A stretch of 64,000 nucleotides of DNA from contig CM041293.1 in assembly GCA_023052935.1 (NCBI GenBank), positions 174,459,600 through 174,523,599 of the forward strand, read 5' to 3'. This DNA is from Piezodorus guildinii. Taxonomy: Eukaryota; Arthropoda; Insecta; Hemiptera; Pentatomidae. Shown here piece after piece: positions 7,036 through 62,279 of this stretch. The notes below the pieces were generated by a model. It saw only the letters and a program-made list of their open reading frames with translations. It searched no databases and was not told the DNA's origin. Both the position numbers and the translations under genes were made by a program. Position 1 is the stretch's first letter, and each line of letters starts with the position of its first letter.

Positions 7036-7514
7036 TTTAATTAAACATATTTCTAAGGAAATTTATTGTTATTCTTTAACCTTTTTTTATCTTTAACTTT
7101 ATTCCCAAGTTCAAAAATTGATTTCAACAAAGGTCAGTGAAAGTCGTGTGTATTGTGCACCAGATTTTTTTTTATTACTATTACAACACAATATAAATTA
7201 CAATTTAATGTTGAAAGTAAGTATTCATTGCTTGATAATTTAAAATTAAATCAGGAATAAAATGATTAAGCTAACACTACAGTAAGGAATAAAAAATAAA
7301 CAAGTATTCTTTATATAGACAGTTATTTTATTTTTTAATCATAAAAGCAAGATTCCATCAGCTCATCTTGACTTTAATCTGAAACAAATAAGTAAAATGT
7401 GATATTAGTTCGAAAATTGACGAATATTTTAATTATGAGTGAAATATCTTACAGCTGTTAGTGAAAACTGTATTTTGCTAGATTAGTATTAGTATTACAG
7501 ATTTTTTATAGTCC
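7036..7514. repeat. ~480 bp direct duplication, copy A
   Basis: Near-identical (by eye roughly 3% different) to 10,695-11,173. The two copies abut the LINE at 7515-10,694 on each side. The block contains a copy of the terminal exon of the minus-strand microexon gene (acceptor then exon from 7378) and a Rep-A-like end (GTGAAAGTCGTGTGTATTGT). Copy B lies next to the last repeat exon, so this copy is probably the non-functional one. Confidence 0.85.
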
Positions 7515-7679: not shown

Positions 7680-8006
7680 ATGATTCAAAGAAACATTAGC
7701 TATTGCCTCGGATTTGGACAGTCTAGAAGGAAACGACTCGGCATGGAAAAGGACATACGTTTGGGAACTTGGAATATTAGATCTCTTACAGGCAAAGAAT
7801 CAGAAATCATCGAAGAGATGAAGACGTACAGGTTAGACATTCTAGGAATCAGTGAAGTACGAAGAAAAGGAGCTGGAGAGGTAGCGATGGACGACGGTCA
7901 TAGGTTAATATATTCGGGGGTTGCTCCAGGAAATAGAGCTGCAAAGGGAGTCGGCATTATAATGAGGGATGAGCTATTCAAAAGAGTGGAAAATGGGAGC
8001 CAGTGA
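7680..8006 (+). CDS. LINE endonuclease N-terminal fragment
   Basis: Begins the LINE protein: LGTWNIRSLTGKESEIIEEM is the first conserved block of the APE-like endonuclease family, and LDILGISEVRRKGAGE the second, containing the catalytic Glu. The frame terminates at a TGA four bases into the next ORF. The next frame carries the natural continuation, so this is one protein split by a 1-nt indel near the AAAA run at about 7989-7993. It nicks target DNA during target-primed reverse transcription. Confidence 0.85.
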   Translation: MIQRNISYCLGFGQSRRKRLGMEKDIRLGTWNIRSLTGKESEIIEEMKTYRLDILGISEVRRKGAGEVAMDDGHRLIYSGVAPGNRAAKGVGIIMRDELFKRVENGSQ

Positions 8007-10654
8007 ACTCACACCTTATTGCAGTCAATATTAATTTACGCACAGGAAACTGGACGTTAATACAAGTGTATGCTCCGACAAACGATGCAAACATATTGGA
8101 TAAGGAACAGTTTTATGCAGACCTTGAGCGTTTAGTGACCAAAAATAAAAATAGTAACAGGAGCATCCTAATTATGGGAGACCTCAATGCGCGGATAGGC
8201 AATGACCACACGAGAACGCATGGTGTAATGGGTCCACATGGAGGAGAGAGAGTGAAGAATGATAGCGGCCAACGACTGATCGAGTTCTGTGTGGACAATA
8301 ATATGATTATTGGGAATTCTTATTTTCCTCACAAGCCAGTGCACAAAATCACCTTCTCAGCAGTGGAACGTAATGCAAATAGCGTCATTGACTATTTTAT
8401 ATACGACCGGGAAATCAGGAGGTTTTTCACTGATGTTAAGGTTATCAGAGGAGCAGAAATTGGTAGTGATCATATGCTACTGGTTGCCGATACGAGGATA
8501 CTTAAGGAGCGCAAGACAAAACCAAAAGCATACGCTAGGATTGAGGTAAAAAAGCTTCAGGACCCTCAGATAAGACAGAGGTATGAAGAGGAACTGAAAA
8601 GAAAACTTCAGGAATTGGATGCGGATGCTAGTTTGGATGATGTATGGAAACATATAAAGGAGAGTATCCTAGAGTCGGCTACATTGGTCTGCGGAGTCAA
8701 AAGAATATATACAAAAGGTAAAAGGACTGCATGGTGGAGCGATGAATTAAAAGCATTGGTTAAGGAAAAGAAGGTAGCCTGGAAAAATTATTGCACTGCC
8801 AAAACTGCGGAAAAATGGCAGTCATATGTATTGGCCAGGAATAATACCAAAGAGGCCGTAAAAACTGCAAAAAGGAGATCTTGGGAAGAATTTGGAGAGA
8901 GATTGAACCAAGGCCATGGTGAAAACATAAAGCTATTCTGGAAAAAAATCAAAGCACTGAGAGGCCGAACAGTCAAGGGAATCAGGAATATTAAGAATGA
9001 GCTAGGAGAAATGGTCTCAGAAGATAAAGGCATCCTAGAGGTATGGAGGAGACATTATGAAAAACAATTCATAAATAAATATGTGTGTCCTTTGGACAGT
9101 CAAGAAGGGCGCTGGAATGAAGCTGAGTTCGATGAGGTCATCGAGGAGGAAGAAGTTGAGCTAGCTATCGAAAAGATCAAGACAGGAAAAGCTCCAGGAC
9201 GGGATACTATAGTTGGAGAGTTTGTTAAGTATGGTGGAATGGAGTTAATGAAGTCTCTCCAAATACTTTTTCAAAAAGCCTGGGATGAGAAAAAGATTCC
9301 TACAGAATGGGAATATAATGTGATAATTCCCATACATAAAAAAGGCAGCCAGGCTGAATGCTCCAACTACAGACCTATATGCCTGTCTCCAGTGGTATAC
9401 AAGTTGTATACAACCATCCTGCATAATAGACTGAAACCTCTAGTTGAGCCGTTTATAGGAGAGGAGCAAGATGGATTCAGGCCAGGACGTCAGACGCAGG
9501 ACCATATATTCACCCTAAGGAATATTATGAAAAAATCATGGGATCATGATAAAAATTTATACCTTGCCTTCCTAGACCTCCAAGGTGCATTTGACTCGGT
9601 CCCAAGAAACGAAATATGGGAAACACTAAGAACCAAGAATGTTCCAAGAAGCCTGGTGGAAGCTATAAAATCCGTATACCAAGATCCAAAGGGTATAGTG
9701 AGACTGAATGGGCAAGAATCTGACCATTTTAGCATAGCTAGAGGGGTTAAACAAGGGGATAGCTTAAGCCCATTGCTATTCACATTATATATGGATGAAA
9801 TAGCTGCAATCTGCAAAAGGCGAACAGAAAGGACTTTCCTAGGGCGAAGGAATCTGCTTCCAGTCGTGATACAGCTTCTCCTGTATGCGGACGATATTGT
9901 CCTGATTGCAGATTCTGTAGAGAAATTGCAGCAAGCAGTTGACGAATGGAATGAAGAGCTCCGCAGGAAGGGCATGACCATCTGTACCAGCAAGAGTAAG
10001 ATCTTACAGGTTGGAAGGGTACAGGAAGATGTTTTGGTATACTGCAATGGAGAGGCGATGGAAGAGGTGTCAGATTTCACCTACCTCGGCACTGTTATGC
10101 ATAGATCTGGGAAAGTAGACTCAGAAATAGTGAACAGGATAAGCAAGGCCAACGCTGTATACTACCAGATCTGCAATACAGTGATCGGGAAGAGAGAAGT
10201 CAGCAGAAATGTGAAACTGCACATCTTTAAGGCGGTGTACCTCCCTTTACTCCTTTATGGTGCAGAAAGCTGGGTGATGACTAGCAGACTGGAGAGCAAA
10301 GTCATTGCTGCGGAGATGAGATTTCTCCGAAGAATCGCAGGGAGAACAAGACGGGACTGCATCTGCAATGATAGGATCAGAGAGGAGTTAGGAGTACCCT
10401 CAATGAAGGATGTCCTGGAAACTCGGCAGCTTAAGTGGTTTGGACATGTTGTTCGGATGGAGGGACACAGAGATCCATTGAAAACCATGGACTATATTCC
10501 CATTGGTAAAAGACCCCGTGGCCGACCAAGAATGTCGTACCTGGAGTACGTAGACCGTTTGTGCAAGAAACGAAATAAAGATATTCGCCAAGCCACAAAT
10601 CTAGCATACAACAGGGAACATTGGCAATCCTGGCTAAACGCTCCCCTACGCTGA
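8003..10654 (+). CDS. LINE endonuclease/reverse transcriptase
   Basis: 883-residue frame, opened here by GTG because it is a continuation, not a true start. Residues about 1-170 hold the rest of the endonuclease: LIQVYAPTND, LIMGDLNARIG and the GSDHMLL histidine motif. The reverse transcriptase spans roughly residues 380-700, with KKGSQAECSNYRPICLS, LAFLDLQGAFDSVPR, RGVKQGDSLSPLLF and the catalytic YADDIVLIAD. The C-terminus has LKWFGHVVRM and KRPRGRPRMSYLEYV, typical of RTE-like and related insect LINEs. No internal stop, so it is a recent insertion. Encodes cDNA synthesis at the nicked target. Confidence 0.93.
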   Translation: MNSHLIAVNINLRTGNWTLIQVYAPTNDANILDKEQFYADLERLVTKNKNSNRSILIMGDLNARIGNDHTRTHGVMGPHGGERVKNDSGQRLIEFCVDNNMIIGNSYFPHKPVHKITFSAVERNANSVIDYFIYDREIRRFFTDVKVIRGAEIGSDHMLLVADTRILKERKTKPKAYARIEVKKLQDPQIRQRYEEELKRKLQELDADASLDDVWKHIKESILESATLVCGVKRIYTKGKRTAWWSDELKALVKEKKVAWKNYCTAKTAEKWQSYVLARNNTKEAVKTAKRRSWEEFGERLNQGHGENIKLFWKKIKALRGRTVKGIRNIKNELGEMVSEDKGILEVWRRHYEKQFINKYVCPLDSQEGRWNEAEFDEVIEEEEVELAIEKIKTGKAPGRDTIVGEFVKYGGMELMKSLQILFQKAWDEKKIPTEWEYNVIIPIHKKGSQAECSNYRPICLSPVVYKLYTTILHNRLKPLVEPFIGEEQDGFRPGRQTQDHIFTLRNIMKKSWDHDKNLYLAFLDLQGAFDSVPRNEIWETLRTKNVPRSLVEAIKSVYQDPKGIVRLNGQESDHFSIARGVKQGDSLSPLLFTLYMDEIAAICKRRTERTFLGRRNLLPVVIQLLLYADDIVLIADSVEKLQQAVDEWNEELRRKGMTICTSKSKILQVGRVQEDVLVYCNGEAMEEVSDFTYLGTVMHRSGKVDSEIVNRISKANAVYYQICNTVIGKREVSRNVKLHIFKAVYLPLLLYGAESWVMTSRLESKVIAAEMRFLRRIAGRTRRDCICNDRIREELGVPSMKDVLETRQLKWFGHVVRMEGHRDPLKTMDYIPIGKRPRGRPRMSYLEYVDRLCKKRNKDIRQATNLAYNREHWQSWLNAPLR

Positions 10655-10978
10655 AAGGCACTACAGGGTGATGCAAAAGAAGAAGAAGAAGAATTAAACA
10701 TATTTCTAAGGAAATTTATTGTGATTCTTTAACCTTTTTTATCTTTAACTTTATTCACAAGTTCAAAAATTGATTTCAACAAAGGTCAGTGAAAGTCGTG
10801 TGTATTGTGCACCAGATTTTTTTTTATTACTATTACAACACAATATAAATTACAATTTAATGTTGAAAGTAAGTATTCATTACTTGATAATTTAAAATTA
10901 AATCAGGAATAAAATGATTAAGCTAACACTACAGTAAGGAATAAAAAATAAACAAGTATTCTTTAAATAGACAGTTAT

Positions 10979-10984
10979 TTTATT
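10979..10984 (-). terminator. Poly(A) signal AATAAA of the microexon gene
   Basis: On the minus strand AATAAA lies about 42 nt after the predicted stop in the terminal exon. It is the first canonical hexamer downstream and is duplicated with the block in copy A. Confidence 0.55.
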
Positions 10985-11025
10985 TTTTAATCATAAAAGC
11001 AAGATTCCATCAGCTAATCTTGACT

Positions 11026-11030
11026 TCAAT
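11026..11030 (-). CDS. Microexon gene exon 17: stop codon
   Basis: A TTTGTTTCAG acceptor precedes ATTGA. With the A left from exon 16 it reads Asn then TGA. The duplicated copy at 7378 reads Asn then TAA, so a stop is kept. An alternative AG eight bases further in would add Ile-Lys-Ile-Ser before a stop. Confidence 0.55.
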
Positions 11031-14000
11031 CTGAAACAAATAAGTAAAATGTGATATTAGTTCAAAAATTGACGAATATTTTAATTATAAGTGAAATATC
11101 TTACAGCTGTTAGTGAAAACTGTATTTTTCTAGATTTGTATTATTATTAATTATTATTATAGATTCCTTATAGTTAAATACTTACTTGATCCACCACTTT
11201 CATTACTGCTTTTATCAGCCGATCCACTGTGGTCTCCTCCTAAACAGTAATAATAATATTTGTATTAAATTATTGTTGGTGATTGTAAAAAAAATAGTTG
11301 GTTTTCAAATTCCTGTGCCATTCTTCATTTTCATTTATGTGTTTTTCAATTCTATACTTATTTTGAAACGTTTTATTTCTGAATTGAATAGATAATTTTT
11401 TATTTATATAAATATTACACTGTTTGTTTGTTTATTTAACATCACTTTATGGTAATGTGTCTAATCGGGTGATGCTACAATGGGAGTCTTAAATTTTGCC
11501 TATCCAGGTTTAATTAGGATAGGAATCTTTGACAAGTACCTGTCATCGCACACACTCAGATCCACCATTTTATGTCCTCTCATAACCTTCTACTAGTGAG
11601 GTGTGGATTTTGTAAATCCCATTGTCTCGATCCGATGGCTTGTGAAAACCTGACATTTCCTTTATCGACATGATTGTAATACAGCATCCTTTTTTAGTCA
11701 GTTTTTATCCGGTATTGGGATCATCTTTCTTAAAGGATCACATGACCATATGGTCAGAAAAACTCTGACTTCCCCTGGAGCTTTGGTTTAAAGCTTTATC
11801 ATTTTTAGGGAAAAAATCCAGAAGAATCTAACACATATAGTCATGGAGGCCACACTGAAGAAAATGAGATGTTATTTTTGTCCAAAAAACAAGGATAGGA
11901 AGTCATCTATAGTTTATATTAAATGAGAACCAAATATTTGTGGACAATGTTTGGTTTCCTATCGCAAAAACTGTGCATACTTTCTTTACAATATAAAAGT
12001 TTCATTTTTTTAATCATTTTCCGTTTTTTAAATATAATAAACTTTTAGATATAGACTTGTTTATATATTATTTTACAAATGTTTTCATTGCTTAGAATAT
12101 AACTTTGATAAAAAAAGAAAAAAAAAGTATTTAATAATATCAGGCATTTATTCAATTTTATAAGCATCCTTTCGTATGGTACCTATATCAAATATGTTGA
12201 ATTAACGTATTTTACAAGAATAAACAATTCTAGATGTTTCAGGATTAAAAAAAAAAAAAAAAAGAAAAGAGGTCTGGGGTCTAAGAGACCCCACCTCACC
12301 AATTTTGACTATACATTTCACCACAGCAGTTAAAGGTTAAGGAAGGCATAACTAAGGATTTTTTACTCCCATTAAAAAATCCTTGGACCATCTGCGGGAA
12401 TATTACAATGTAATAGAATAATAAAACTTACCACTGCTGTCTCCTCCATGACTACCTGAATCTCCATGACTACCACCTAAACCAATCAGAAGTATTATAT
12501 TTTAAAAATGTGATAATGAAATATTTTGCTATTTAAAACATCTGATATTTAAATTACAATGTCTTGCTTAAACTACTTACCACTGGCACTCCCATGTTCT
12601 CCTGATCCACCATGATGGCCACCTGAGAATATTTAAGTTTTATTTTAATACATATTAATTACATCCATAATTAAATAATAATATATGGATGAATTTAATA
12701 AAAAATGACAATATGCAAGGGCCCATATTGAATTCTTTAAAATTACAGTAGGCACTTGTAATCAAAAGAAACATTTTGAGTAGCAATTAATGATTCTTTT
12801 ATTTTAAATTGTAAATTAAAAATTGTCACTGACTAATAACATAGACAGCAAAATGATAATCTTAGGCAATCTCCAGTCACAGAGAAGATATAGACTTCAT
12901 GTGCCAGTCACAAAAGATTGACGCATCTTCACCTCATCCAAAAGAAAATTCCAACCTGGTGTCAAAAGTATAGCAACATGGTCGCATAACATTTTGAAAA
13001 ACTGTCCTTTTTAAACAGAATTATTTAAATAATATGGTATACCCTTGAATATTTCAAAATCCTTAAGTAACAAGAAAGAAACGGTTTCTAAAACAGTCAA
13101 TTTTCTATCGCAGAAAGGTCTATTGAGGAGCATATAATTTTTTATTTATTTTAAATCATTAAATTTCTTCTCTTTTACTATATATAATGGAAATGAAATG
13201 AAATGAAAAGTCATTTTATTCTGGGACGAGTAGTCCCCTAAGAATAACAAGAAAAGTACAATATAAATAATAATTGTCTGGTCGTTTAAGACTTCAGTTT
13301 AACAGTAAAAGACAGGTTTTGTGACAACGAATAGTTATCATCTATTGATTTTAAATATTATATATGTTGGGAAGATGGATACTTTAGGAGATGGAGAAAT
13401 AGTTGGTGTTTGAAAGTGGATGATGATAAGGATTTGCGAATGGATACCGGTAAGGAATTCCAAATAGGGCAGCACGAATAATAAAGGATTTTTTGAAGGA
13501 AGCAGATCTGTGAGAAGGTATATACAAGTTTATAGGTTGGGATCTAGTGTTTACTGAATGGACAGAGGAACAAGTGGTAAGCATATCAAGAATATAAGAT
13601 GTTTTTTGTATTGAAAAATCGGAAGAGACAGACACCAAGGAGGTACTGTCGACGGAAAGAGGTGTACCAATTCAACTAGGTGTACCTTCTAGAAAAATGG
13701 GAGCATCTGGGGATTCCACATGTGAATCTAATGAAATATATTATATAATCTTTCGTTATCCTTAATGTTTATTTTAATTTACTTTCTTTATAATTTAATC
13801 TTATTTATTTATATTATTTTTATAAAGTTTTATTTTTATGGTTTGTATCTTTCTTTAGTCATGCTACTATGACTAATGGAACAATGTTACCGTGAGAGTA
13901 TTTTTTTATCCAGGTTTAATTAGGATAGACTACTTCAGCGAATACCTGACACCGCACAGGCTCGGCACTACCATTTTGTGACCTTTCTGAAGGACAACAT

Positions 14001-17000
14001 AATCAAGGATTTTTTACAACCTTAAAAAATGCTAAGAAAAATGCCAGGTTTCAACTTGTGATGTTGGGCATAGGAAGCTGTTATGCAAGCTACTACACCA
14101 CAATGACCCATTATTTTAATTAAAAGATATTAGAATAACTTAATAACTATACCATTGATGACCTATAAGGTTCAAGTCTTCACACCAAAACAACTAAGCT
14201 ACCAAAAATGTCATAAGTTTTATGACTTATTATGATTACGTTCAAAACTATTGTGCTGTTTTTGATTATCACTTTAAAATAAACTAATAACAAAAGTATA
14301 ATTTAAAAAATCTGATTTTGGCATGATTACGTCTTTAAAGAGAAACTGCTTTTTTTGTATATTTTAAATTATCTTCTCACCTTCTCCATCACTAATGTTA
14401 CTTGGCATTTTGGTATGATTGACTCAATTTTTGTTTAGGATCAATGATTTTTTTTTCTCATTTAATGCATCAAGTGATAAACATAAAACAAAAATAATTT
14501 AAGAGCCTAAAAGTTTTTTTTTTTTAAACTGATAAAAAATGTGAACAGATGTCAGTAAATATATAAAACCATAAAATCTCTTACTTAAACCACCACTGAC
14601 ACTCCCATGTCCTGAACCTCCTGATTCACCATGATGGCCACCTGAAAAATTTTATTTATGTTTATTGTTTGTTATATACACAATAAATAATAATACGTAG
14701 ATGGATTTAATAAAAAATTAAACTTCCATGCACCTGAGTTAAAATTAATTTGTTTACCAAGGTGAAATGGTTATCGCAGTATAAGAGAAAAAAAAAAAAA
14801 TCACAGGTACTTGTTATCAGGAGAACCATTTCGAGGAGGAGTTATACCTTCACAGTTTAAATAATAAATTAAAAAAATAAATCTATATTATCACGAGTGT
14901 TATATTGTCAAGAATTACTGAATAAATTCACAACAATAATATTTTAATGTCCATTAATAGTAGACTGTTTATTCGGTTATTATTAGTAGACGGGATATTC
15001 AGGAGAAAAAATCTGGTGTGGGCAACACACGACTTTCACTCCCTCAACTGTTTAAATCAATTTAAAAACTATTAAATATACTTCAATTTGAAAAATATTT
15101 GAAGTTGATTTTAATAAAACGTGTATTCATTTTTGTTAGAAAACATATGATTTAGATTAAATAATATAACTATATTAAAATGTTAATCAGTTATAAGTTC
15201 ATTTCCTCATTCGTCACTTTATGTTACCTTTTACAAATTTTTTATCAGATCATATTTTTTCTAAAATCTTTCTCTTTCCAACGGTATATTACTATATATT
15301 GCTGTTCTTATTATCAAAAACACAGAAATTGCATAAAAAATATGTTTGCACTTTTCTCCTTTAGTTGTTTATCATATTAGCTCAACTTGAATATTTAGCT
15401 GTTATTTATCTATGAAATTAGATGATTGCCTAATTTTTTGAAGTCTACAAAATTAAAGGTACTTTAGAGGAAGAAAATTCAAAATATCGGCATTTAAGCC
15501 CCATCAGACTATTTCAATCAGAATGAAATTTAAATGATATTAAAGCCCATTAAATTTACATCAACATAGGGAATTTAATCAAAATCGTTAGAACTGTTTT
15601 TAAGAAAAATCATAAAAAAGTGCAAATTGCATGGTATAAAGTGGCTCTTCTGGTTAGCCGATTTTTATGAAAAAGTTTCTGTAACATCTCAGGGATATAA
15701 TTATCTTAAATATAAAATTTCAGTTTCGTACCACTTATGGTTTTTGTGCTAAACTTACCACACAGAGACCTTTTTTCGGGACTTGATCATTTGGACTCAG
15801 GACACCTTAAAACGTGTATTTCCGTCGAAAACTGTATTTCACGATCGCAATACTTTCCCTTTCTATATAATTCATATAAAAGTAAGTGAAAGTAAAATAG
15901 TGAAAAAATGTCAGAATCAGTAGCTCATGCTTAAAATGTTCCTCCTGATGACAATTACTCACTGCATATAATTATAATTATAAGTAATTATTGCACATAA
16001 AATAAATAATAATATGTGGAATGGTTTAATCAATGATCATTTATATGTTTCCAAATTAAAATTAATTAGTTTTGATTTGAAACAAACTAAATTTTTAAAA
16101 AATACTATAGGTTAATGTAACAATGAAAAAAATTGCAAACCATTATTGATTCTTAAAGTTTAGGTAGAACATTTTTTTTTTTTTTTTCACAGAACATACC
16201 CCTGCACTTCTTATTACATTTGAAACAAGATTATTTTACATTTATCAATTGAAATGAATAATTAAACATAACATTCCTCAAAAAAAAAAATAAAGAAATA
16301 AAATAATTATAATAATAATTGTATCATTGAATATAATCAAAACAATACTATTAGTTTGTTTATTTATTTAAAATTTCTTTATGCTACTGTAGCTAATCGG
16401 ACAAAGCTACAGTGGGAGTCCTAAATGTTGCATATTTAGGTTTTATTAGGATAGAGATATTTAATGAGTACCTGACATTGCACAGGCTGGGGACCACCTT
16501 TTCATGTCCCCTCTGAAGGACAACATAACTGACGATTTTTTAATCACATTAATAAATCCTAGGGCCAACTGAAGGTTTGAACCCAGGACCTTGGGCATAG
16601 AAGGCAGTTATGTTAGCCACTATGCCACAGGTGACCCCACAATACTTTTTACTTAGTATCAGTTGTTAACCATTGGAAAATTGACAAGAAAAATAGTCAA
16701 GGTCATAGAAAAAAAAATAAAACAAGGGAATTGTCTTGAAATATTTGTAATAAATAGGGTATGCTTTTAATCTAAAATGTTAGCATTCACATTTCTGAGT
16801 TAAAATAAATTTGTTTAATGGATTATTTTGCTTTTAAGAATATTTAAAAAAAAAAAAAAATAAAATACTTATGTTGGAGCTTGTTATCAAGAGGAATACA
16901 TCATTTATTAGAATCACAACTATAAAAAATATATATATATATACAGGAAATGTTATTTTCTGTGAAATTCACCCTTATCTATTTTTTTGTTAATTACCTC

Positions 17001-20000
17001 ATATAAGTATTATCACAACATTTTTATTGCGTATCAGGATAACAACTGTTTTTATTTCAAAATAGTGTTTTAGTTTAACTTCCTATTACCTGCTTCACCA
17101 CTCCCACTGCCATGACCTTCTATGGTTCCTGAACCACTGCCACTAGCACCTGATAACAGAGTAATGATAAACATTTTATTTGAGGTTATGTTGTTATGTA
17201 AATTATCTTAAAGAGTTACTTACTCACTTCCTAAATAAGCATTACAGTCAAACAACTTATTTTTAGTATAGGGTATTAATAATTTAATTTATAATGTTTG
17301 TTTAATTTCTTATCATAATTAATAAATCATTATCCTGCCTAATCCATAATTTGCTCTGTGTTCCATGTTCATCAAAGTATGTTTTAAAGATTATTGTCAA
17401 CATCATAATATGGCTCTTAATGGATTGGTCCAAAGTATACTTAGATTAAAATAAATTTCTAATTTTGCTCTTTAGAAAGCATACTTTTTTGAAAAAGTAT
17501 TTATGCTGAATACGTAATACACAATAAATAATCCTCATCCAAGGGAAACATTTAACAAAAGCCCTCCTACCAAAAATTTACGGGATCAAGATATTCCAAA
17601 AATTGAATTTAAAAAGTATGTTTTTTTCATTGGTGTTTAATTACTACTACTATTGTGGCGCTACAACTCGGGACGAGTCTTGGCCTCCTCCACCAACTTC
17701 CTCCAGTCATCTCTGTTCTGTGCAGCTATCATCCAGTTCCTGACTCCCAAGAATCTCTGGAATCCTTTGCAACAACGTCTCTCAATCTCAATTTTGGTCT
17801 CCTTTCTTCGTATCATAGAGAGGATCTTTCGATCTTCTTTGCTATTGCTTCATCCTCAATCCTTGCCACGTGGCCCAGCCCTTCTAAGTCTTCCGAGCTT
17901 CATCCTCAGGATGACATCTTGATCATCAAGCATTGAATAAATTTTCAGCATTTGTCCGCCTTCTCCAGTTTCCACCGATTTGTACTCCTCCAAATATTCT
18001 TCGAAGAATTTTCCTCTAAAAGATTAGGAGGTCTTGTTCCATTCTTTTTGTTGTCGTCCATGTTTCCGATGTGTACAGCAGGACTGGGCGGATTAATGCT
18101 TTGAACAGATATAGCTTGTTCGGCCGGGATAGAAGGCAAGAGGTGAATTCCTTGCGAAGGGCAAAGTAGCACTTATTAGCCATCAATATTCTTTTCTTGA
18201 CTTCAACTTCAACTTGGTGTTTAATACTCTTTCCTTTATTATTAAAGAAAACAAGATGTGTCATCCTAAGTACCAACCTACCCCTTCAAAGAAAAAAAAT
18301 CAGGATTTTCATTTTGTGGGACAGTTCAATAACACATATTTCTATTTCTACTTTGCCAGTCATTATTCGAACCATTGCTTTTTAATTCGGGATGATACTA
18401 CATCCTAACTTCCTTCTAGACTTATTACTGAAATACAGAACAATTTGCTATCAATTGAATATTAGTAATTTATTAAAATTTATCATACCAGATCCACCAC
18501 TGCTGCTTCCATGACCTGATCCACTCAAACCACCACCTGATAACAATTATATTAATAATATTATTTTTATTTTAAGAAAGAAAATATTCTAGTATGATTA
18601 TGAACTAAATTAAACATATACTTATTGGCAGTACCTTTTTGAAATAATTTCATTTCTTAAGTGTATTTTAAAGGATTTGGGTGTTTTTAGATGAAATTGG
18701 ATAAAAGATTTCGATGTATAACAACACAGAATTGAAATATAAAGTTTCAATTTTGTTAAACATTTCCTGTACAGGGTGTCTGGCAACAGGGAAAACTGGA
18801 AAAGTAAAGGATTTTAAAATTATATGAAAAAGTCAGGGAATTTGTTCTTTGGTCAGAGAAAATGGTCCCTAAATAACATCGTTTCTTCTTCACTCAGACA
18901 AAAGTTCTAACTTGCCTACTTATTGTGATGTAGCAAATATTAAAGTGATTTTAATATTATAAAGGGACAGGAGAGCTGTGGAGAAGAGAAAAGTCAACCT
19001 TCAGGAAGGAATTGGAGCAAAAAAAAAGCAAAGAAGCTCTTCAGAAAGGCTGCAGAGATTCAAACATTAAAGAAAAGCTCTTAAGGTTTAAATAGATATA
19101 TTGATTGTAAACAAATTTGTGGTCAGATTTGTAAATATTGATTATTACTAACATCAGTATCCAAGTTCCTCATAATTCATTGGCAAGTCAACTTAAAAAA
19201 CTACAATTTCAGCTGGTGTCAGTGTTAAGGGAACAGGGTCCTTAACACTTTTACTACTGCCATCTAGCAGACAGTGTCATAATTAGTGTCATCAAAACGC
19301 CATCTAGGGGCTGCCAGAGGAAGGGACTCTCTGCCAAAATTGGCATGTATGAGCAAGACCCCCATGAAGTGAGCGATTGTGAGAGACTTTCAGTGAAGTG
19401 AGCACATGTGTCCAACAGTGCGAGGAACATTATTTCATTGCCTCATACATTAATAATTACTTCATCATGAAGGAGTAATTCATAGGAATCCGCCTACCCA
19501 TGGGCCGACAAAGAAGAGGACGAAGGGGAAGAGGAAGCAACTAGAAAATACAGATATGTACAATAGAATAAGAAAACTAACACTCCTTACCATATGTAGC
19601 AATAGTAACAAATACAACCCATTCGTTTATACAGTCCACTAGTCATTGAAAACCTAGCCCATCAATTAATTTATTATTATCAAAAGTCCCCTGGAACGCC
19701 CCAGGCCTTAGATAATAAACAGTAAGGTAGATATAGTTGAATCTTATCGTAAAGTTAGTAGTCATTATATATATTTTTAATCTAGTATACCCTATTAATT
19801 ATAATTATTCTTAGTTTTGTCGATTTTCACCGAGATTTAGCCAGGTAAAAGACTTCTTACAATACAGAGGGAATCTCTTTGAGCTGATTTGCTTGACATC
19901 CTGCTGTAGTACCTTTTGGGAACTAGTGTTTAGATTCTTTAAATTATGTTATTAATAGAAATTTGTAAGTATTATATCAAAATCCATAATAGAGAGATAA

Positions 20001-23000
20001 TAAATATGATTAATGTGTTAATAAAACTTAAAATTGTTACCTAAGCCCCCACTACCGCCTCCATGGCCACTGATATGTTCTGATCCAGAGTGACTGCCTC
20101 CTAAATACATTAAATATTAATTACTTAAATTTATAAATCAGGAAATAAATAATAGTTCTTATGTAATGTGTTAAAGTGTTAAGATATTTCACTTTTATTA
20201 TATAATCTGCTTTACCTGAGGATTCAAATTTTGTAATATTATATCAAAAAGAATTACAAAGTGATTATCATTTTTAATCTGAATCAGTAATTTTTTAAAC
20301 TGTTTTATTTAAATATATTGAAAAGTCTTAAAAGGCTTTAAGTTTTTTTTTTTTTTTTTAGCGAGTTAATAATGAGTTACCACTGAAAAATTAAATGATT
20401 ACATTTGTTTTATTACATGATTTCAATAATAAACCTTAGTCATTTACCAAGGAAACTATTTTTAGCAGCCCTTAGCTCTAAATTTGTGATTTTATGTTTC
20501 AAGGTAAGTATGTAAATACCAAAAATCAAATTAAGAAAAATATATTTGTTGCTTTTATTTTAAACTAATGGATTATTATATAATTTGGCGCCCAATCACA
20601 TGTAACTTCCGAATGATCCTCAGAATTCGAAAATTACAATCCATTATTTAAATATCAATCTGTAAATAAAAAGTAATTGTCATACCTAATCCACCACTGC
20701 TGCTTCCATGACCTCCAGTTCCACTTAAAATACCACCTGATAACAGTTCAAATATTTTAATTTGAATCAGTATTATTTATTGTTTGTACATATATCAAAA
20801 AAACACTACAAAGAAATAATCATATTTTTTAATGTGTTATTAAAACCCCTGAGAATGCTCTGTATTTGAGAGGGTCGATAAAGAAGAAGTGTTACTAAAA
20901 GAAATTTCATAAAAATATTTACACAGAATGGTGTACATAGGAGCTCAGTAATTGGATTATTGTTAAATTTTAAATGTCAGCCTTTGTGATTAACCAAGAA
21001 AAACAATTTTTTAACTGTCCCACCCTCTAAATGTAAGTTATTAGGTTTCAATATACCTAAGTAAGGTTTCAAAATTTAAAAAAAATCTAGCGATTTGTTA
21101 TTACTTATTGTTCTATACGACAACTGTGCTAAACTTTATGTTTAATTTTTCCTAAAAATCTAGCACACATTACATGATAATTTTGAGGACTTGATATAAA
21201 AATTAGTTGTCATAATTTCATTACGTTAATAAAAAGCACTGCTGCTTCCATGGACTCCTGATCCCCTTAAACCACCCCCTGATAACAGTTCAAATATTTT
21301 AATTTGAATCAGTATTACATATATTAATCATATCAAAAAGTGCTACAAAGAGATAATCATTTTTATTTTCACTTACCCATGTATGAAATATAGTAAAGGA
21401 AAGTATTGCAATCGTGAAAATTTTCTAATTCCAGTTTTCAATGGAAATACGTTTTAGGATCTCCTGAGTCCAAATGACCAAGTCCCTCAAAAAGGTCTGT
21501 GTGTGGTAACTCCAGCACGTAAACAAAAACTCCTATGAAAATTTAGGACAACTATACATCCCGAGATGTTACAAAAACATTTTCATCAAAATCAGCTGAC
21601 CGGAAGTGCTACTTTATACTATGTATTTTGCACATTTTTATAATTTTCTCAAAAACGGCTACAACGATTTTGATTAAACTCCCTATATCAATGTAAAATT
21701 TAATGGCCTTTAATATCATGTAGGTTTGATTCTGATTGAAATAATCCGAAAGGGCTTAAATGCCGATATTTTAAATTTTCTTCCTCTAAAGTATCTTTAA
21801 TTTTGTAGATTCTATAAAAATAATAATATTATCTTGTTACCAGTAATGAAAAACAGGTAAATATATAAGTTAAATGAATTTGATATCCAACTAAAGGAGA
21901 AAAGTGCAAACATATTTTTTTATGCGATTTTGGTTTTTTTGAAAATTACAACAGGTATACAGATGTATAATATACCGTTGGAAAGCTAAAGATTTTAGAA
22001 AAAAAATTAATTTATACACAAGCTTATAAAAGTTAATAAATAGTGATGAAAAGCCGATAAAACTAAGTGATTATTTTAGATAATAATATAATTGATTTTT
22101 TAATATAGCACGTTTCTATAGAAATTCAATTTAATTAATTCTTTAATGGTTTAATGGAATGCTCTGCATTTGAGGAGGTTGATAAAGAAACATCTTCCTT
22201 AAGTTTTACTAAAAGGAATTTCATGAAAAGATTTACACAGGATGCTGAAAAACATAGGAGCTCAGTAATTGGATTATTGTAAAATTTTAATAATCAAACT
22301 TTTTGATTAATCAAGAAAAACAATTTTTTCAAACTCAATATTTGAGGTATCAGATTTCAAAATAAAAAGGAATATAGTAATTTGTTATTTCTTATGTTTC
22401 TCTGAGACAACTGTTTTTGTAAAACAATATTTTTGCTTAAATTGGCCTCAAAGTCTGACGCAGGTCATCTTAGGATGATCTTCAGAGCTCGACATACTAA
22501 TTTTAAATATGTAAATATTTTTTTTTTAATATGTAAATAAAAAGTCATGATCATACCTAATCCACCACTGCTGCTTCCATGGCCTTCTGATCTACTTAAA
22601 CCACCACCTAATAAAGGTTTAGAATTGAATCAATCATTATTTAAAATATTTTATTGAAAGATACAAGTTTTTGAATATTATATCAAAACCATAGCAAAGA
22701 TACAATATTTTTAGTAATGAGTGAATACAAATTAAAATAAAATAATCACCTAATCCACTGCTACCACTAGTGTGTCCTGATCCAGAGTAACTGCCTCCTA
22801 GATACATTAAATAATTATTACTTGAATATAAAAATTATGAGATAAATCTTAACTTTTATGAGCCATATGCATCAAGTTTAATAGTTACCCATTACATTTC
22901 TGGTTAATTATGTGTTATAGTTCATATCATCAAAATAATGTTATTCATAATGAGATAAAACATTTAAGTAGGTTAAAATTATTCAGAATGCCAAGTGGGT

Positions 23001-24585
23001 TGAAAATATGTTATTTTTTGCTAACTCTGTAAGACAGCTATACGCCCGAAATTTTACAGCAACTTTTTCATCAGCTAACCAGAAGAACCACTGTATACCA
23101 TGCATTTTGGACATTTTTCCGATTTTCTCAAAAACTGCTGTAAAATTTTTATTAAACTCCCTTATATGAATGTAAAATTTCATGGACTTTAATATGATGT
23201 AGGTTTCATTCTGATTGAAATAGTATGCAGGGCTTAAATGCCGATATTTTGAAATTTTCTTCCTCTAAAGTACCTTTAATTTTGTAGATTTCCAAAAAAA
23301 TGGTACATTATCTTATTAGCATTGATAAATAACGGATAAATATGCAAGTTGAGCGAATTTGATAAACAATTAAAGGAGAAAAGTGCAAACATATTTTTAT
23401 TTTTTTCTAATGTCCTTCTTTATTTTTATTAACACTTTTCCTGGTCTAAACAGCCCTCTTCTGGCTGATGATGATATTAATATTTAAAATATTATAAAAA
23501 GGAATCATTGAACTGTTAGTGAAAAATCTCACCTGAACTACCGCCTCCATTCATAGGAGGAAGTGCAGGTCCTGGCCCTGAAAAAAAAAATCATGCTCAT
23601 ATAATTAAGTTAAAATAAACCTAATAATACATGTAATCTTAATTCTAATCGGTAAGTTTAAGGGTGTAAAAACAATTTCTGTATTCTTAAAATTTAAATT
23701 AAATAATTGATAGGTTTGGGCGCCAAAAATAAGACATAAAAGCTATTATGGACATATTTTTATACCAAATCTATATAGCCCATGAAAAAAACAAATTTCC
23801 TTAAATTGTCTCTATGTAGTTATAGCCTATTTTAAAATATTGGTATAAAATTATGAGCATTTCAAAATTTAATCAGATTATTGTATGACTAAAATCATTT
23901 ATTTTAATTTGCTAATTTTTGGGACTAAAAAAAAAAGTAAATACACAGATGTTCACACTCTAGGAATTAATTATTCAATATTCATGCAATATACTGACCG
24001 AAAATTCCACTAAATCCTGGATGTGGTCCAGTTGTCCAGTGACCTAAATTAATAAATTCATTATTTAATGATTTATTTATTAATTAATATTTATTATAAA
24101 TGGATGAAGGGTGAGGTTCAACAAATAAAAAATACAGAGAAAAGTTAAAAAATTACTGTGGGATGTCTAGATAAGACCTATTTTTTTTTTTTTTTTTTTT
24201 TTTTATATTGAGAATAAATCGTTATATGGTAATTTAAATTTTCAAATCAATCTATGACAATGAGAATACGTATACTATGTCTATAGTACTGGTATTCATC
24301 CGTTTTGATCATATTCAAAGAATCCAATACAGTTCATTTCGACAAATTTGATCTGAAAAATTTCTTCCAAAATAGACATACCAACCCAAGAAAACAAAAA
24401 AAAAAAAGAAGAAAATTCATAGATGTTTAAGGAGTCTTCTACAATTTTATTTCAATCAATTTTATCTCTAACTAGCTGACCCGACAGACAATTTCCTATC
24501 TGAACTATGTTGTAGCAAAATCTTTCAATGACCAAGGAAAAGTGGGATTATTTTTATATATGTAGATAAAGAGATTACATGATGG

Positions 24586-24627
<42 letters not shown>

Positions 24628-27600
24628 ATCTACCAAAGTAACTTTTCCCTTTTTTTCTTTCAAAAGATCCTTGTTCTGACTCATACAAACATAATAAAAA
24701 ATGAATTAGAGAAATCGGTCAAGCCATTCACCGATGACCAAGAGAAAAGGCAATTTATTTGTATATATATAATAAAATAATCTATGGCCTACTTATTTTT
24801 CTATTAAATTTCACAAAATTTTATTTATAATGATTTATTTAAATGTTTTTATGATATGCCTAATAAATATTTCTTACCTGGGAGCTGTCCTTCATGACTG
24901 ACACCCCCTCCTGTAAAGATTAATCACTATGAACAAATATATCAATAAAAACTAATAACAAATCTATACCAATATAACTTTAATCATTAACATAAAAATT
25001 AATACCATAATTCATGTAATTATCTTAAGAATACATTAATCTTATTAATTGGTTTTATTATTATATATCTTTCCATTGCATATAAGAAATCTGTTGTTTA
25101 TTCATCTAATGTTACTTTATGCTATGATGGCTAATGTAGGATGCTACAGTGGTAGTCTTAAATTTTGCCAATACAGGCTTAATTAGGATTTGAATCTTTA
25201 GTGAGAACCTGACATCGGAGAAGCTTGGGATCACCATTTTACATTCCCTCCAAAGGAAGGCATTAACAAGGATCCTTTACTCCTCATAAAAAATCCTAGG
25301 GCCATCTGCTGGATTTGAATCCGTGACCTTGGGCATAGAAGGCTAAGCTAGCCACTATAGCAATAGTACATTTGCTATATACTAGTATATTTTATGTCCA
25401 ATTTATGTGATGAATTCTACTGCTATAATTTCAAAGAACATACATTGGAACATATATTAAAATAATTCTGAGAAAACAGAGATGGAAAGTAATTTTTTTA
25501 GGTATGAAGTCGTTAACTACCAGGGTCCCATTCCGTGAAAAGTAATTTATAGTGTTCTAGTGGACATTTTGTATTTAGCACTGATGCAGTGAAGTAGTAA
25601 AAAAAAGTATTAGGTAATGAGAAAATGCAAATAATGAGTCGAATAAAAGTAGTTGTGTACAATGATTGGTAGTCTGCAAGTGGGAGTATTTGCATTAAAA
25701 TAATGACTCAATGCATATAATCTCTGATATGGTTGATTCACATGAGGTATGAGTAGTTTTCCCCAACATAAAAACAAAAAATAATATAAAATAATAAAAA
25801 CTGTACTTCTACAACGTTCTTGGTGGGGGTGGGTATAATCGAATGACGATTATGGGATCATTCGATTATCGCAATCATTCGGATTAATCGGCTTGGATAA
25901 GCGAATGATCAATGCACTGTAACGATAGTCGAGGGATTATAAGGAGCCTTTTTTTTTTTTTGCTCATCACATAAATCGTCTCTCACAATGCATACTAATC
26001 ATTCGATTATTTAAATCATCGAAGTCCGATCATCCGATTATGACGATCATTCGATTATGCCCACCCTAGTTCTTGGACTCAGTACATATTTCTATAGATA
26101 TAGATATCTACTCGTACAGTTTCTAGACCAACGACGAAGCAATGAGGTTTGAAAAATGTGGTGTTTAGGCCGAGATCACACTCGACTGCCTAGGGTTTTT
26201 CCCTCATTTTCTAGGAAAGCATTTTATAGAAGCTGGGTCTACCCCAGGAGGATCTCCATACACTAGGGTTGCCCTCCCCTAACTGAAATAATAGAATATA
26301 TAATATTCGGCCTATAATATAATATATATATTTAATATAATATAACCAGCTATCCATTAGACCAACTCACTCCCTAAGTTTTTCTCTACTTCCTCCCCAA
26401 CTAGCGCTGCTGTTTCCTCTTATGTCCCGTTTTTTGTATATACATGGATTGGACAGGTGTGTCAAAAGCCTTCCCGAATTATCTCAAAACCCACAACTAG
26501 ATCTAAAATATTAATTTCATAGATAAAATTAAATGGGACATGAACCTTTCTTACCTAGACTATGTTGACTTGATCGGTTCGAACTCAATGTTATTCCTCC
26601 ATTTTGTCCTTCAACAATATTGATAACCTGTGTCAATGAGTGTTAGTTAGTTAAAAATGTTTTTTAATACATCGACATTTAAAATTATATATAATAAATA
26701 ATTAAATTTGACATGGATATAGGAACATGTACTAGATTGTGAAGGAACTACATAAAAGTAGCTCTTCAATGAATACTTTAAGGTAGAAGATCTCGTGACC
26801 ATCTTCTTTTACTTTCACTTTCACGCCTGAGTCCAAATAACCAAGTCCCGCAAAAAGGTGTCTGTGTGTGTGGTAACAATAGCGCAAAAATGAAAAGTCG
26901 TACGGAAATGAAATTTCATATTTAAGACTACTATACGCCCGAGATGTTACAGTAAATTTTTTAATAAATTCGGCTGACCGGAAGTGCTCCTTTATACCAT
27001 GCATTTTGCACTTTTTTATAATTTTCTCAAAAACGGCTCGAACGATTTTGATTAAACTCGTTAGATGGATGTAAAATTAAATGGGCTTTAATATTATGTA
27101 GGTTTCATTCTGATTGAAATACTTTGACAGGACTTAAATGCCGATTTTTTAAATTGTTTTCCTCTAAAGCAACTTTAATTTTGTAGATTCTATAAAAATA
27201 ACCATATTATCTTGTTACCACTGATGAAAAACAAGTAAATATATCAATTGAACGAATTCGGTATCCGGCTAAAGGAGAAAACTGAAAAAAATATTTGTTT
27301 AATGCAATTTTTCGTTTTCCAACACAAGAACAGTAATATACATGTATAATATACCGTTGGAAAGCTAAATATTTTAGAAAAAAATATTATTTCATACACA
27401 ATCTTGTAAAATCTAATAAATAGATATGAAAAGCCGATAAAACTAACTGATTGTTTAGATAATAATATTATAGATTATTTATTTAAACTCGTTTCTATCG
27501 AAACCTAAAGTAATTAATGCTTTGATGGTAACACTCAATTTTATCTCTAACTGTATTTGAAAATTCTTTAAATTTAAATTAAATTTTTAAAACGGAAGTA

Positions 27601-27836
27601 AGTGAAAGTTGTGTGTTGCCCGCTCCAGATTTTTTTACTAAAATTTGCCTAAGATATGTGTGGTGTATATGTCTAAGTTCGTTATTTACTGATATTCCTG
27701 ATACTTAAAAGAGGAGTATCCAAGTAAAAGTATTCACTAATGGAATTTAAAAAATAAAATAAAATTGTTTATACACTTATAGGAATATACGAACCAGAAG
27801 ACCTGCAAAGGCACAAATAAGACCTGAACCCATCAT
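11026..27836 (-). CDS. Secreted Gly/Ser/His-rich microexon protein (17 exons)
   Basis: No known family recognised. Seventeen minus-strand exons join without a frame break: 27836-27795, 26627-26555, 24910-24878, 24043-23999, 23577-23533, 22797-22750, 22607-22557, 20736-20686, 20100-20041, 18536-18489, 17149-17090, 14641-14585, 12622-12581, 12476-12432, 11239-11186 and 11030-11026, with a dead exon at 21278 skipped (exon 8 in numbering). Length 759 nt, about 252 residues. The N-terminus MMGSGLICAFAGLLVINIV is a good signal peptide. The rest is low-complexity Gly, Ser and His, with repeats such as GGLSxSxGHGSSSGGL and GHHGESGGSGHG. Exons 3-16 are all phase 1-1 with lengths divisible by three, so units can be added or lost without shifting frame. 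Likely an extracellular structural, glue, silk-like or salivary protein; function is inference. Introns are full of transposons but splice sites are intact. Confidence 0.8.
11186..11239 (-). CDS. Microexon gene exon 16
   Basis: Acceptor CTGTTTAG, donor GTAAGT. 54 nt, coding GGDHSGSADKSSNESGGS. This last repeat is the most charged and least Gly-rich. Ends in A rather than G, so the split codon becomes Asn. Confidence 0.78.
11421..11590 (-). mobile_element. SINE-1 copy, left part
   Basis: Family tail (TTTGTTTGTTTATTTAACAT) and body up to ATTTTATGTCC. The head-proximal body resumes at about 12,330 (AGGCATAACTAAGGA to CCATCTGCGG). The SINE therefore appears split by the insertion at 11,595-12,301. 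Confidence 0.55.
11595..12301. mobile_element. Possible non-autonomous DNA transposon
   Basis: Interrupts a SINE-1 copy. Left end AGTGAGGTGTGG and the reverse complement of the right end, GGTGAGGTGGGG, form imperfect inverted termini. A hairpin GGGGTCT/AGACCCC sits just inside the right end. No coding capacity; superfamily undetermined. Confidence 0.4.
12432..12476 (-). CDS. Microexon gene exon 15
   Basis: 45 nt between TTGGTTTAG acceptor and GTAAGT donor, coding GGSHGDSGSHGGDSS plus the first base of a Gly codon. Phase 1-1. Confidence 0.82.
12581..12622 (-). CDS. Microexon gene exon 14
   Basis: 42 nt, acceptor ATTCTCAG, donor GTAAGTAG. Codes (S)GHHGGSGEHGSAS. The first codon is completed by the A of exon 13, giving Ser. 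Closely similar to exon 13, indicating exon duplication. Confidence 0.83.
13190..13720 (-). mobile_element. LINE 3' end fragment
   Basis: Minus-strand counterpart of the LINE tail at 3345-4180. The tail carries TTAGGGGACTACTCGTCCCA and TTTCATTTCATTTC, preceded by a broken RT C-terminus with RSASFKKSFIIRAALFGIP. Lies in the intron between exons 14 and 13 of the microexon gene. Confidence 0.6.
13845..14111 (-). mobile_element. SINE-1 copy
   Basis: Contains the family body (TACCTGACACCGCACAGGCT as read on plus) and a diverged tRNA-like head at its right end. Intronic in the microexon gene. Confidence 0.6.
14585..14641 (-). CDS. Microexon gene exon 13
   Basis: 57 nt, acceptor TTTTTCAG, donor GTAAGAG. 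Codes GGHHGESGGSGHGSVSGGL. Ends in A, so the following split residue is Ser instead of Gly. Confidence 0.84.
   Translation of the reverse strand: MAIMVNQEVQDMGVSVVV
15003..15897 (-). mobile_element. Rep-A element
   Basis: Reads from the AAATCTGGTGTGGGCAACAC end to CGATCGCAATACTTTCCC on plus, so it is in minus orientation. All internal family blocks are recognisable. Intronic in the microexon gene. Confidence 0.8.
16353..16640 (-). mobile_element. SINE-1 copy
   Basis: Near full length. The minus-strand head reads TGTGGCATAGTGGCTAACAT and GGGTTCAAACC. Intronic in the microexon gene. Confidence 0.7.
17090..17149 (-). CDS. Microexon gene exon 12
   Basis: 60 nt, acceptor TGTTATCAG, donor GTAATAGG. 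Codes GASGSGSGTIEGHGSGSGEA plus a split Gly. One of the two longest repeat exons. Confidence 0.83.
17643..18285 (-). mobile_element. LINE RT C-terminal fragment
   Basis: Minus-strand translation shows RRILMANKCYFALRKEF-type thumb sequence (here KKRILMANKCYFALRKEF), LFKALIRPVLLYTSETWT and, after breaks, NRDDWRKLVEEAKTRPEL. The 3' end is a short TAG-type tandem tail. 5' truncated insertion within the intron between exons 12 and 11. Confidence 0.75.
18489..18536 (-). CDS. Microexon gene exon 11
   Basis: 48 nt, acceptor TTGTTATCAG, donor GTATGATAA. Codes GGGLSGSGHGSSSGGS plus a split Gly. Same unit type as exons 7 and 9 and the dead exon at 21,278. Confidence 0.85.
18750..19980. other. Unclassified insertion in the exon 10-11 intron
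   Basis: A GC-richer stretch with GCCATCTAG repeated twice (about 19,260 and 19,300), a perfect 10-bp inverted repeat AGTGTTAAGG/CCTTAACACT around 19,221-19,250, and CCCCTGGAACGCCCCAGG. It could be an LTR or foldback remnant. No RT, protease or transposase motif was found. Confidence 0.3.
20041..20100 (-). CDS. Microexon gene exon 10
   Basis: 60 nt, acceptor TGTATTTAG, donor GTAACAATT. Codes GGSHSGSEHISGHGGGSGGL plus a split Gly. Shares its start and acceptor context with exon 6. Confidence 0.84.
   Translation of the reverse strand, partial: EAVTLDQNISVAMEAVVGA
20686..20736 (-). CDS. Microexon gene exon 9
   Basis: 51 nt, acceptor CTGTTATCAG, donor GTATGACAA. Codes GGILSGTGGHGSSSGGL plus a split Gly. 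Confidence 0.85.
21233..21278 (-). pseudogene. Dead repeat exon (exon 8) of the microexon gene
   Basis: Has the family acceptor (GTTATCAG) and reads GGLRGSGVHGSSS like its neighbours. The sequence then runs straight into intron without the GGTGGATTAG plus GTATGA donor found in exons 7 and 9. A deletion of about 20 bp explains it. If retained, the frame meets a TAA soon after, so it is probably skipped. Confidence 0.75.
21390..22140 (+). mobile_element. Rep-A element, 3' truncated
   Basis: From AAAGGAAAGTATTGCAATCG through all central blocks to ACACAAGCTTATAAAAGTTA. The family terminal block with GTGAAAGTCGTGTG is absent. Lies between dead exon 8 and exon 7. Confidence 0.75.
22557..22607 (-). 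CDS. Microexon gene exon 7
   Basis: 51 nt, acceptor CCTTTATTAG, donor GTATGATCA. Codes GGGLSRSEGHGSSSGGL plus a split Gly. Confidence 0.85.
22750..22797 (-). CDS. Microexon gene exon 6
   Basis: 48 nt, acceptor ATGTATCTAG, donor GTGATTATT. Codes GGSYSGSGHTSGSSGL plus a split Gly. Confidence 0.84.
   Translation of the reverse strand, partial: EAVTLDQDTLVVAVD
22990..23400 (+). mobile_element. Rep-A internal fragment
   Basis: Begins near CTATACGCCCGAAATTTTAC and ends at AAGGAGAAAAGTGCAAACAT. Both family ends are missing. Confidence 0.65.
23533..23577 (-). CDS. Microexon gene exon 5
   Basis: 45 nt, acceptor a T-run plus CAG, donor GTGAGATT. Codes GPGPALPPMNGGGSS plus a split Gly. Pro-rich, unlike the later repeats. 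Confidence 0.82.
23999..24043 (-). CDS. Microexon gene exon 4
   Basis: 45 nt, acceptor TTAATTTAG, donor GTCAGTAT. Codes GHWTTGPHPGFSGIF plus a split Gly. Holds the only Trp and the only two Phe outside the signal peptide. Confidence 0.8.
24878..24910 (-). CDS. Microexon gene exon 3
   Basis: 33 nt, acceptor TCTTTACAG, donor GTAAGAAA. Codes GGGVSHEGQLP plus a split Gly. The shortest repeat exon, eleven codons. Confidence 0.8.
25092..25371 (-). mobile_element. SINE-1 copy
   Basis: Tail, body (GAACCTGACATCGGAGAAGC on plus) and a decayed tRNA-like head. Intronic, between exons 2 and 3 of the microexon gene. Confidence 0.6.
25798..26375 (-). mobile_element. SINE-2 copy interrupted by a MITE
   Basis: Matches the copy at 4655-4957: CTCAGTACATAT, TTTCTAGACCAAC, CCAGGAGGATCTCCATAC and a decayed tRNA-like head (CCATTAGACCAAC). 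It is split by the hAT-like MITE at 25,824-26,068. Confidence 0.6.
25824..26068. mobile_element. hAT-like MITE, 245 bp
   Basis: Flanked by an exact 8-bp target duplication GTTCTTGG at 25,816-25,823 and 26,069-26,076. Ends are inverted: left TGGGGGTGGGTATAATCGAA, right reverse complement TAGGGTGGGCATAATCGAAT. Interior is full of ATCGAATGAT-type motifs in both orientations and a T-run. An 8-bp duplication and TAGGG termini are typical of hAT. Confidence 0.75.
26555..26627 (-). CDS. Microexon gene exon 2
   Basis: 73 nt, acceptor TTGACACAG, donor GTAAGAAAG. Starts in phase 0 with VINIVEGQNGGITLSS, completing the hydrophobic signal segment and cleavage region begun in exon 1, then NRSSQHSL and a split Gly. 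It sets the phase-1 frame used by all following exons. Confidence 0.82.
26806..27642 (+). mobile_element. Rep-A element
   Basis: Contains GAGTCCAAATAACCAAGTCC, GAAATTTCATATTTAAGAC, TACCGTTGGAAAGCTAAA and the end GTGTGTTGCCCGCTCCAGAT. The first ~100 bp of the family is missing. Fills most of intron 1 of the microexon gene. Confidence 0.8.
27795..27836 (-). CDS. Microexon gene exon 1: start and signal peptide
   Basis: Codes MMGSGLICAFAGLL in phase 0. Two adjacent ATGs; either may start. The donor GTTCGT is weak, but no better donor preserves the hydrophobic frame. An alternative is GTCTTC eight bases earlier. Preceded by a TATA box and a 5' UTR of only about 15 nt. Confidence 0.72.
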
Positions 27837-27847: not shown

Positions 27848-27883
27848 AAAGTGAGGATTCTTTGGAGCATTGGAATATTTATA
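27848..27883 (-). promoter_or_regulatory. Core promoter of the microexon gene
   Basis: TATAAATA at 27,883-27,876 (minus). An initiator-like CTCACTTT puts its A at 27,852, 31 bp from the first T. The ATG follows within about 16 nt. A strong TATA with a very short leader is usual for abundantly expressed secreted-protein genes of insects. Confidence 0.65.
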
Positions 27884-44822: not shown

Positions 44823-44882
44823 TATATTGTTCCACCTCTTCGAAAAAATTCTTCAGTACTATTCAGAGGAGCATAAAAGACA

Positions 44883-44898: not shown

Positions 44899-44927
44899 GT
44901 GAGTGACACTTTTCAAATTTAAATAAA

Positions 44928-57961: not shown

Positions 57962-58002
57962 TGTTTTGGTTTATTTGTATTTTTTAAATTTTAAAATTAA
58001 AA

Positions 58003-62270: not shown

Positions 62271-62279
62271 GTGTGTTAT

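Follow-up and report, generated by a model that had tools for sequence, protein, structure and literature searches.

Tandem genes of frame-preserving microexons, probably for small secreted Gly/Ser/His-rich proteins, in Piezodorus guildinii

Gene A and gene B are neighbouring genes of the pentatomid Piezodorus guildinii that consist mostly of very short exons of one phase, and that probably encode small secreted proteins rich in glycine, serine, and histidine (G/S/H). Gene A lies inside a window of 64,000 nucleotides (nt), the whole stretch of DNA that was analysed (G000:C2:174459600-174523599; contig CM041293.1 of assembly GCA_023052935.1, a genome of 1.203 Gb), and gene B lies outside the window, to its left. 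Positions are counted from the first letter of the window.

Gene A is on the minus strand and comprises 16 exons that run from an ATG at 27836 to a TGA at 11026, a span of 16.8 kb of which exons make up 4.5%. An earlier note on this DNA had proposed a 16-exon model with GT-AG junctions, a 759-nt open frame, a stop, and a poly(A) signal, and rebuilding the model from the sequence gave exactly this result. All 15 introns (104 to 2448 nt) are bounded by GT and AG, and the joined frame of 759 nt has a single, terminal stop and a product of 252 amino acids (aa). The note also held that exons 3 to 16 are all of phase 1-1. Exons 3 to 15 (n = 13; 33 to 60 nt) do start and end in phase 1; exon 16 contributes 5 coding nt and terminates in the stop, and hence is not 1-1. 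Exon 1 (42 nt) is of phase 0-0, and exon 2 (73 nt) is of phase 0-1. The TATA box that the note placed ahead of the start is TATAAATA at 27876-27883. It is followed by an initiator-like TCACTT. The A of this motif comes 31 nt after the TATA box's first T, a typical spacing, and both elements are kept in gene B. An AATAAA at 10979-10984 lies beyond the stop exon. The features of the gene A locus, in the order of transcription, are as follows.

27876..27883, minus strand: TATA box TATAAATA, present in sister gene B too
27849..27854, minus strand: TCACTT resembling an initiator, with 31 nt from the first TATA-box T to its A, present in gene B too
27795..27836, minus strand: exon 1, 42 nt, phase 0-0, carrying the ATG and the beginning of the predicted signal peptide; equal length and phase in gene B
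26555..26627, minus strand: exon 2, 73 nt, phase 0-1, remainder of the predicted signal peptide and mature N terminus; equal length and phase in gene B
24878..24910, minus strand: exon 3 of the gene A model, 33 nt, phase 1-1
23999..24043, minus strand: exon 4 of the gene A model, 45 nt, phase 1-1
23533..23577, minus strand: exon 5 of the gene A model, 45 nt, phase 1-1
22750..22797, minus strand: exon 6 of the gene A model, 48 nt, phase 1-1, duplicate of exon 9
22557..22607, minus strand: exon 7 of the gene A model, 51 nt, phase 1-1, grouped with exons 8 and 10 and the truncated copy
21237..21278, minus strand: truncated copy of an exon that retains its acceptor but not its last 9 nt or its donor, with an in-frame stop right after
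20686..20736, minus strand: exon 8 of the gene A model, 51 nt, phase 1-1
20041..20100, minus strand: exon 9 of the gene A model, 60 nt, phase 1-1
18489..18536, minus strand: exon 10 of the gene A model, 48 nt, phase 1-1
17090..17149, minus strand: exon 11 of the gene A model, 60 nt, phase 1-1
14585..14641, minus strand: exon 12 of the gene A model, 57 nt, phase 1-1, duplicate of exon 13
12581..12622, minus strand: exon 13 of the gene A model, 42 nt, phase 1-1
12432..12476, minus strand: exon 14 of the gene A model, 45 nt, phase 1-1, grouped with gene B exon 12
11186..11239, minus strand: exon 15 of the gene A model, 54 nt, phase 1-1, grouped with gene B exon 13
11026..11030, minus strand: stop exon, 5 coding nt, completing AAT, then TGA
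10979..10984, minus strand: AATAAA poly(A) signal motif

Both strands of the window were scanned for GT-AG exons of phase 1-1 with at least 60% G/S/H. The scan returned 24 candidates, overlapping segments that without exception lie in the gene A locus on the minus strand, and none on the plus strand; 20 third-order Markov sequences of 64 kb gave a mean of 0.2 candidates. Ten of the 13 symmetric exons of gene A were marked in this way. The other three, exons 3 to 5, are less G/S/H-rich than the rest and were missed by the composition filter.

Gene B was found by examining 100 kb on each side of the window for G/S/H-rich exon arrays. It is the single further array in these 200 kb, where six isolated G/S/H-rich windows form no array. 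The gene shares the strand of gene A and lies head-to-tail with it, immediately to the left of the window, at coordinates -326 to -14901 (C2:174459273-174444698). It consists of an exon 1 of 42 nt and an exon 2 of 73 nt, each identical in length and phase to its counterpart in gene A, then 12 exons of phase 1-1 and a stop exon, of which 5 nt are coding. The joined frame of 738 nt predicts 245 aa and ends in TAA, versus TGA in gene A. Because this sister gene repeats the same layout, it is the strongest check on the gene A model. The gene B exons were selected from candidates, and three more copies, whose splice sites are weak or absent, were omitted. These copies have exon-like G/S/H sequence with a weak donor (about -6229 to -6185), with a weak acceptor (about -6027 to -5977), or without a donor (about -7956 to -7915), fitting either exon decay or weak extra exons.

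Locus A was also compared blind with locus B by using blastn at an expectation (E) value of 1e-5, and matches lying at least half in repeats that recur in 264 kb were removed before counting. All nine remaining matches fall at gene A exons, although exons are so small a share of that gene. Eight of the nine also fall at gene B exons, and the ninth is at the possible gene B exon that had been omitted for its weak donor. A query of the promoter plus exon 1 has at least two loci in the 1.2-Gb genome, genes A and B. Searching the genome with protein A gave seven matches, all within gene A; this search is insensitive, because it missed gene B. On sequence evidence, gene A looks like a real protein-coding gene composed of frame-preserving microexons.

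Several exons of gene A have been duplicated together with their flanking introns: exon 6 with exon 9, exon 7 with exons 8 and 10, and exon 12 with exon 13. In five of five pairs compared, similarity is higher in the exon than in either of its 60-nt flanks, with gap columns excluded and with three of the pairs sharing exons 7, 8, and 10. Summed over four pairs, which exclude 7/10 and include exon 8 twice, the proportion of synonymous differences (pS, 0.295) exceeds that of nonsynonymous differences (pN, 0.132; Fisher p = 0.012). The truncated copy is identical to exon 8 at 34 of 42 positions, and their upstream introns are identical at 51 of 58. In a tree of the exons with 40-nt flanks included, in which 6 of 23 inner branches are well supported and the edges of the truncated copy are 4 to 5 nt off, A14 groups with B12 and A15 with B13. 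The same tree pairs A6 with A9, A12 with A13, and B5 with B10 within their genes, and joins A7 and A8 with the truncated copy, with A10 adjacent at lower support. Since pairs between genes and pairs within a gene both occur, some exons appear to predate the gene duplication, and others to have been copied later. The earlier note suggested that the architecture permits exon shuffling; what the comparisons show is apparent tandem duplication of exons inside the gene, not exchange of exons between different genes.

Past residue 20, protein A is 37% G, 25% S, and 9% H. If cleaved after residue 21, mature A and B would have 231 and 224 aa, with 72% and 78% G+S+H and no Cys in either. Histidine is nearly the sole basic residue (21 H and 3 K+R in A; 32 H and 3 K+R in B), and the predicted isoelectric points are 6.1 and 6.5. 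The best 12-residue hydropathy close to the N terminus is 2.73 in A and 2.07 in B. By this measure, which is of hydropathy only, the N termini look like signal peptides, in agreement with the note, and a cleavable signal peptide is a prediction from hydropathy. The mature proteins are probably disordered.

The translated product was searched against 5.8 billion proteins, and no relative was found at E 1e-3 among the 7994 best word-sharing candidates scored. Residues 1-82 had 55 candidates in the same database, none at E 10, and neither Pfam nor PDB gave a match to protein A at E 1e-3. The low complexity of the protein and the limit on candidates lower the sensitivity of these searches, at which A and B appear to be orphan proteins, in line with the note's remark that no family could be recognised. 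Among the literature titles and abstract openings listed, a scope outside which most subscription papers fall, no G/S/H-rich microexon gene of this kind was found.

Other elements occur in the window. A retrotransposon open reading frame (ORF) with reverse transcriptase at 7973-10654 lies between two near-identical copies of the gene A 3' end (7294-7497 and 10946-11149; 196 of 205 aligned bases identical, stop exon included), an arrangement that resembles an unusually long target duplication. Among the best 120 of 2151 protein matches to this retrotransposon, the top match has 76% identity, and the best named matches are to the psyllids Diaphorina citri (45%) and Cacopsylla melanoneura (44%). 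On the plus strand, 46444-48633 holds a 729-aa ORF between stops, Thr-rich, in which a 99-bp repeat occurs about 17 times. Its C terminus, with six Cys, bears a weak resemblance to a chitin-binding peritrophin domain (CBM_14; E 0.0022, which does not reach the curated cut-off), and the product is perhaps a mucin-like secreted protein. A Maverick/polinton-like element occupies 57988-63443. One of its ORFs shows similarity to a packaging ATPase (Pox_A32, E 1.9e-5); a second reading frame, which has no Pfam match, resembles a family B DNA polymerase when its motif is judged by eye. A dispersed repeat core, GTGAAAGTCGTGTGTTGCCCGCACCAGATTTTT, occurs 11 times in the window with up to three mismatches (mean 0.00 in 100 shuffles), at 15007, 27602, 34131, 40483, 41053, 44703-45254, and 53596, and recurs inside a 148-bp tandem array at 44926-45374. 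Viral and genome contigs yielded no exact match to the repeat core and none to the retrotransposon protein, nor did viral contigs yield one to the ATPase ORF.

The explanation we prefer, with a probability of roughly 60%, is that A and B are a tandem pair of genes for a small, secreted, Cys-free, G/S/H-rich, disordered protein, probably a structural secretion, which grows by tandem exon duplication. In this model, a TATA/initiator promoter and a signal-peptide cassette split between exons 1 and 2 would be followed by 13 (A) or 12 (B) exons of phase 1-1 and a stop exon. Because every inner exon is in one phase, the frame would survive when an exon, copied along with its flanking intron, is gained, skipped, or lost, and the two arrays may have been partly rebuilt by such gain and loss after the genes separated. 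Composition weakly suggests a sheath, coat, glue, or silk-like material. Because histidine is almost the only basic residue, the protein might condense on leaving an acidic secretory granule or on meeting metal ions. A more specific version is tentative, and we would not expect it to hold in full: A and B would belong to an orphan family of structural proteins that switch with pH or metals, and in which length and repeat content change as individual phase-1 microexons are gained or lost.

Vertebrate elastin and SCPP/casein genes, of unrelated lineage, also encode secreted disordered proteins by means of many small exons of the same phase that can be added or skipped. Elastin is crosslinked via Lys, and mature A and B have only three K+R each. 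Two other structural secretions were considered and set aside. Brochosome proteins found no support, as the available text describes brochosomins as containing Cys (PMC10607721), and amphibian glue proteins differ in exon type, as far as the available text describes them (PMC11237159).

A number of observations weigh against the preferred explanation. The donors of exon 1 are weak in both genes (GTTCGT in A, GTCTGT in B), as are the AAG acceptors of gene B exons 4, 11, and 12. Between A and B, exon 2 is 64% identical (47/73), a lower value than that for the opening 100 nt of intron 1 (74%; 64/87, gaps excluded), and pN (0.27) and pS (0.36) are little different over exons 1 and 2. With exon 1 at 81% (34/42) and the 120 nt upstream at 83% (98/118), exons 1 and 2 are thus no better conserved than their surroundings, and the upstream region is the best kept. 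Within gene A, the pN/pS comparison has few sites: pair 6/9 accounts for 7.1 of the 13.6 synonymous differences, and in pair 7/8 pS (0.16) hardly differs from pN (0.13). The truncated copy seems less coding-like than live exons when set against exon 8, but not against exon 7, to which it is identical at 37 of 42 positions, on par with live exon pairs; on such small counts, and because of this likeness, it makes a thin internal control. Both gene models come from genomic sequence and not from transcripts, and the structural role was read from composition, with no measurement that indicates a tissue.

The same layout could instead belong to a gene for a salivary effector in a hemipteran that feeds on plants, bicycle-like or KQY/KHI-like, in which a conserved signal cassette precedes fast-changing microexons and the protein is delivered into the host. 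We consider this unlikely. In the available text, bicycle genes of aphids, phylloxerids, and coccids have a signal peptide, about 17 small exons, rapid change, and a small secreted product, nearly all of their internal exons begin at codon position 2, and some putative homologues lack CYC motifs (PMC9168663). Likewise, 13 of 14 internal exons in A and 12 of 13 in B begin at codon position 2, and a large gene serves a small protein whose exon 2 is less alike between A and B than the upstream region. However, A and B differ from bicycle genes in their G/S/H low complexity and in one internal exon of phase 0, and with no Cys in either mature protein there is no CYC motif. The bicycle classifier, used with its published coefficients and with its phase 2 taken as a start at codon position 2, gives 0.17 for A and 0.085 for B, below the cut-off of 0.72; A scores 0 under the other phase convention, and would score 0.95 if its single phase-0 internal exon were phase 2. 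The resemblance to microexon effector genes drawn in the earlier note goes no further than layout, and the classifier rejects gene A. The best named relatives of the nearby retrotransposon, among the matches listed, are psyllids, a point in favour of the effector alternative. Bicycle- and KQY-type effectors are, however, unlike low-complexity G/S/H sequence.

The KQY/KHI genes, in the available description, share with A and B a conserved signal-peptide cassette, miniature exons, a big gene for a small protein, and one pair in tandem (PMC7495047). In pea aphid KQY1a, 33 of 37 exons are of 15 bp or less and the gene spans 45.7 kb (PMC7495047). In contrast, gene A has recognisable exon copies and 16 exons of 33 to 73 nt save the stop exon, so that most exceed 15 bp, within 16.8 kb. 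The schistosome microexon genes (MEG) resemble A and B as secreted proteins of 10 to 20 short exons, mostly multiples of three, with long introns, and differ in that most exons are of 15 bp, according to the available text (PMC10526429). Gene A has this kind of layout, with 13 of 16 exons symmetric 1-1 and a hydrophobic N terminus. No sequence relation to MEG proteins was found at E 1e-3 with the whole protein or at E 10 with residues 1-82, searches whose sensitivity low complexity limits. The psyllids among the named retrotransposon matches listed weakly favour an insect source over a fluke.

A Gly/His-rich antimicrobial or antifungal peptide, which tenecin-3 and holotricin resemble in composition, would also be small and secreted-looking. 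Antimicrobial peptide genes usually have few exons. The glycine-rich tenecin-3 is listed among insect antimicrobial peptides in the part of the source available. The nasonins of the wasp Nasonia, in the available text, are likewise insect secreted proteins lengthened through exon duplication with phase 1 introns, but their repeats are defensin-like domains, one per exon (PMC2853521). Proteins A and B have no homologue or Pfam match and few charged residues (3 K+R), unlike cationic antimicrobial peptides, which makes this alternative improbable. We consider it very improbable that the locus is a pseudogene or an artefact of annotation, in which splice signals present by chance in a decaying repeat array have been joined into a model: truncated or splice-weak copies at both loci, a few weak splice sites, an exon 2 whose likeness does not exceed that of intron 1, and models drawn from genomic sequence would suit it, but frames intact over 16 exons (A) and 15 (B), a conserved promoter and start, and exon-centred conservation argue against it.

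Microexon genes of like layout are linked to host-manipulating secretions in flukes and aphids. If A and B do encode switchable structural proteins, the same-phase layout of bicycle and MEG genes would have been invented independently, to make a material and not to manipulate a host, and splicing could tune chain length. Its presence in a Cys-free, repeat-like G/S/H protein may point to a general route to fast change of length and content in secreted proteins. A tandem pair with both matched and gene-specific exon copies would allow the birth and death of exons to be dated directly, and genes A and B indicate a kind of gene that goes undetected by ORF calling.

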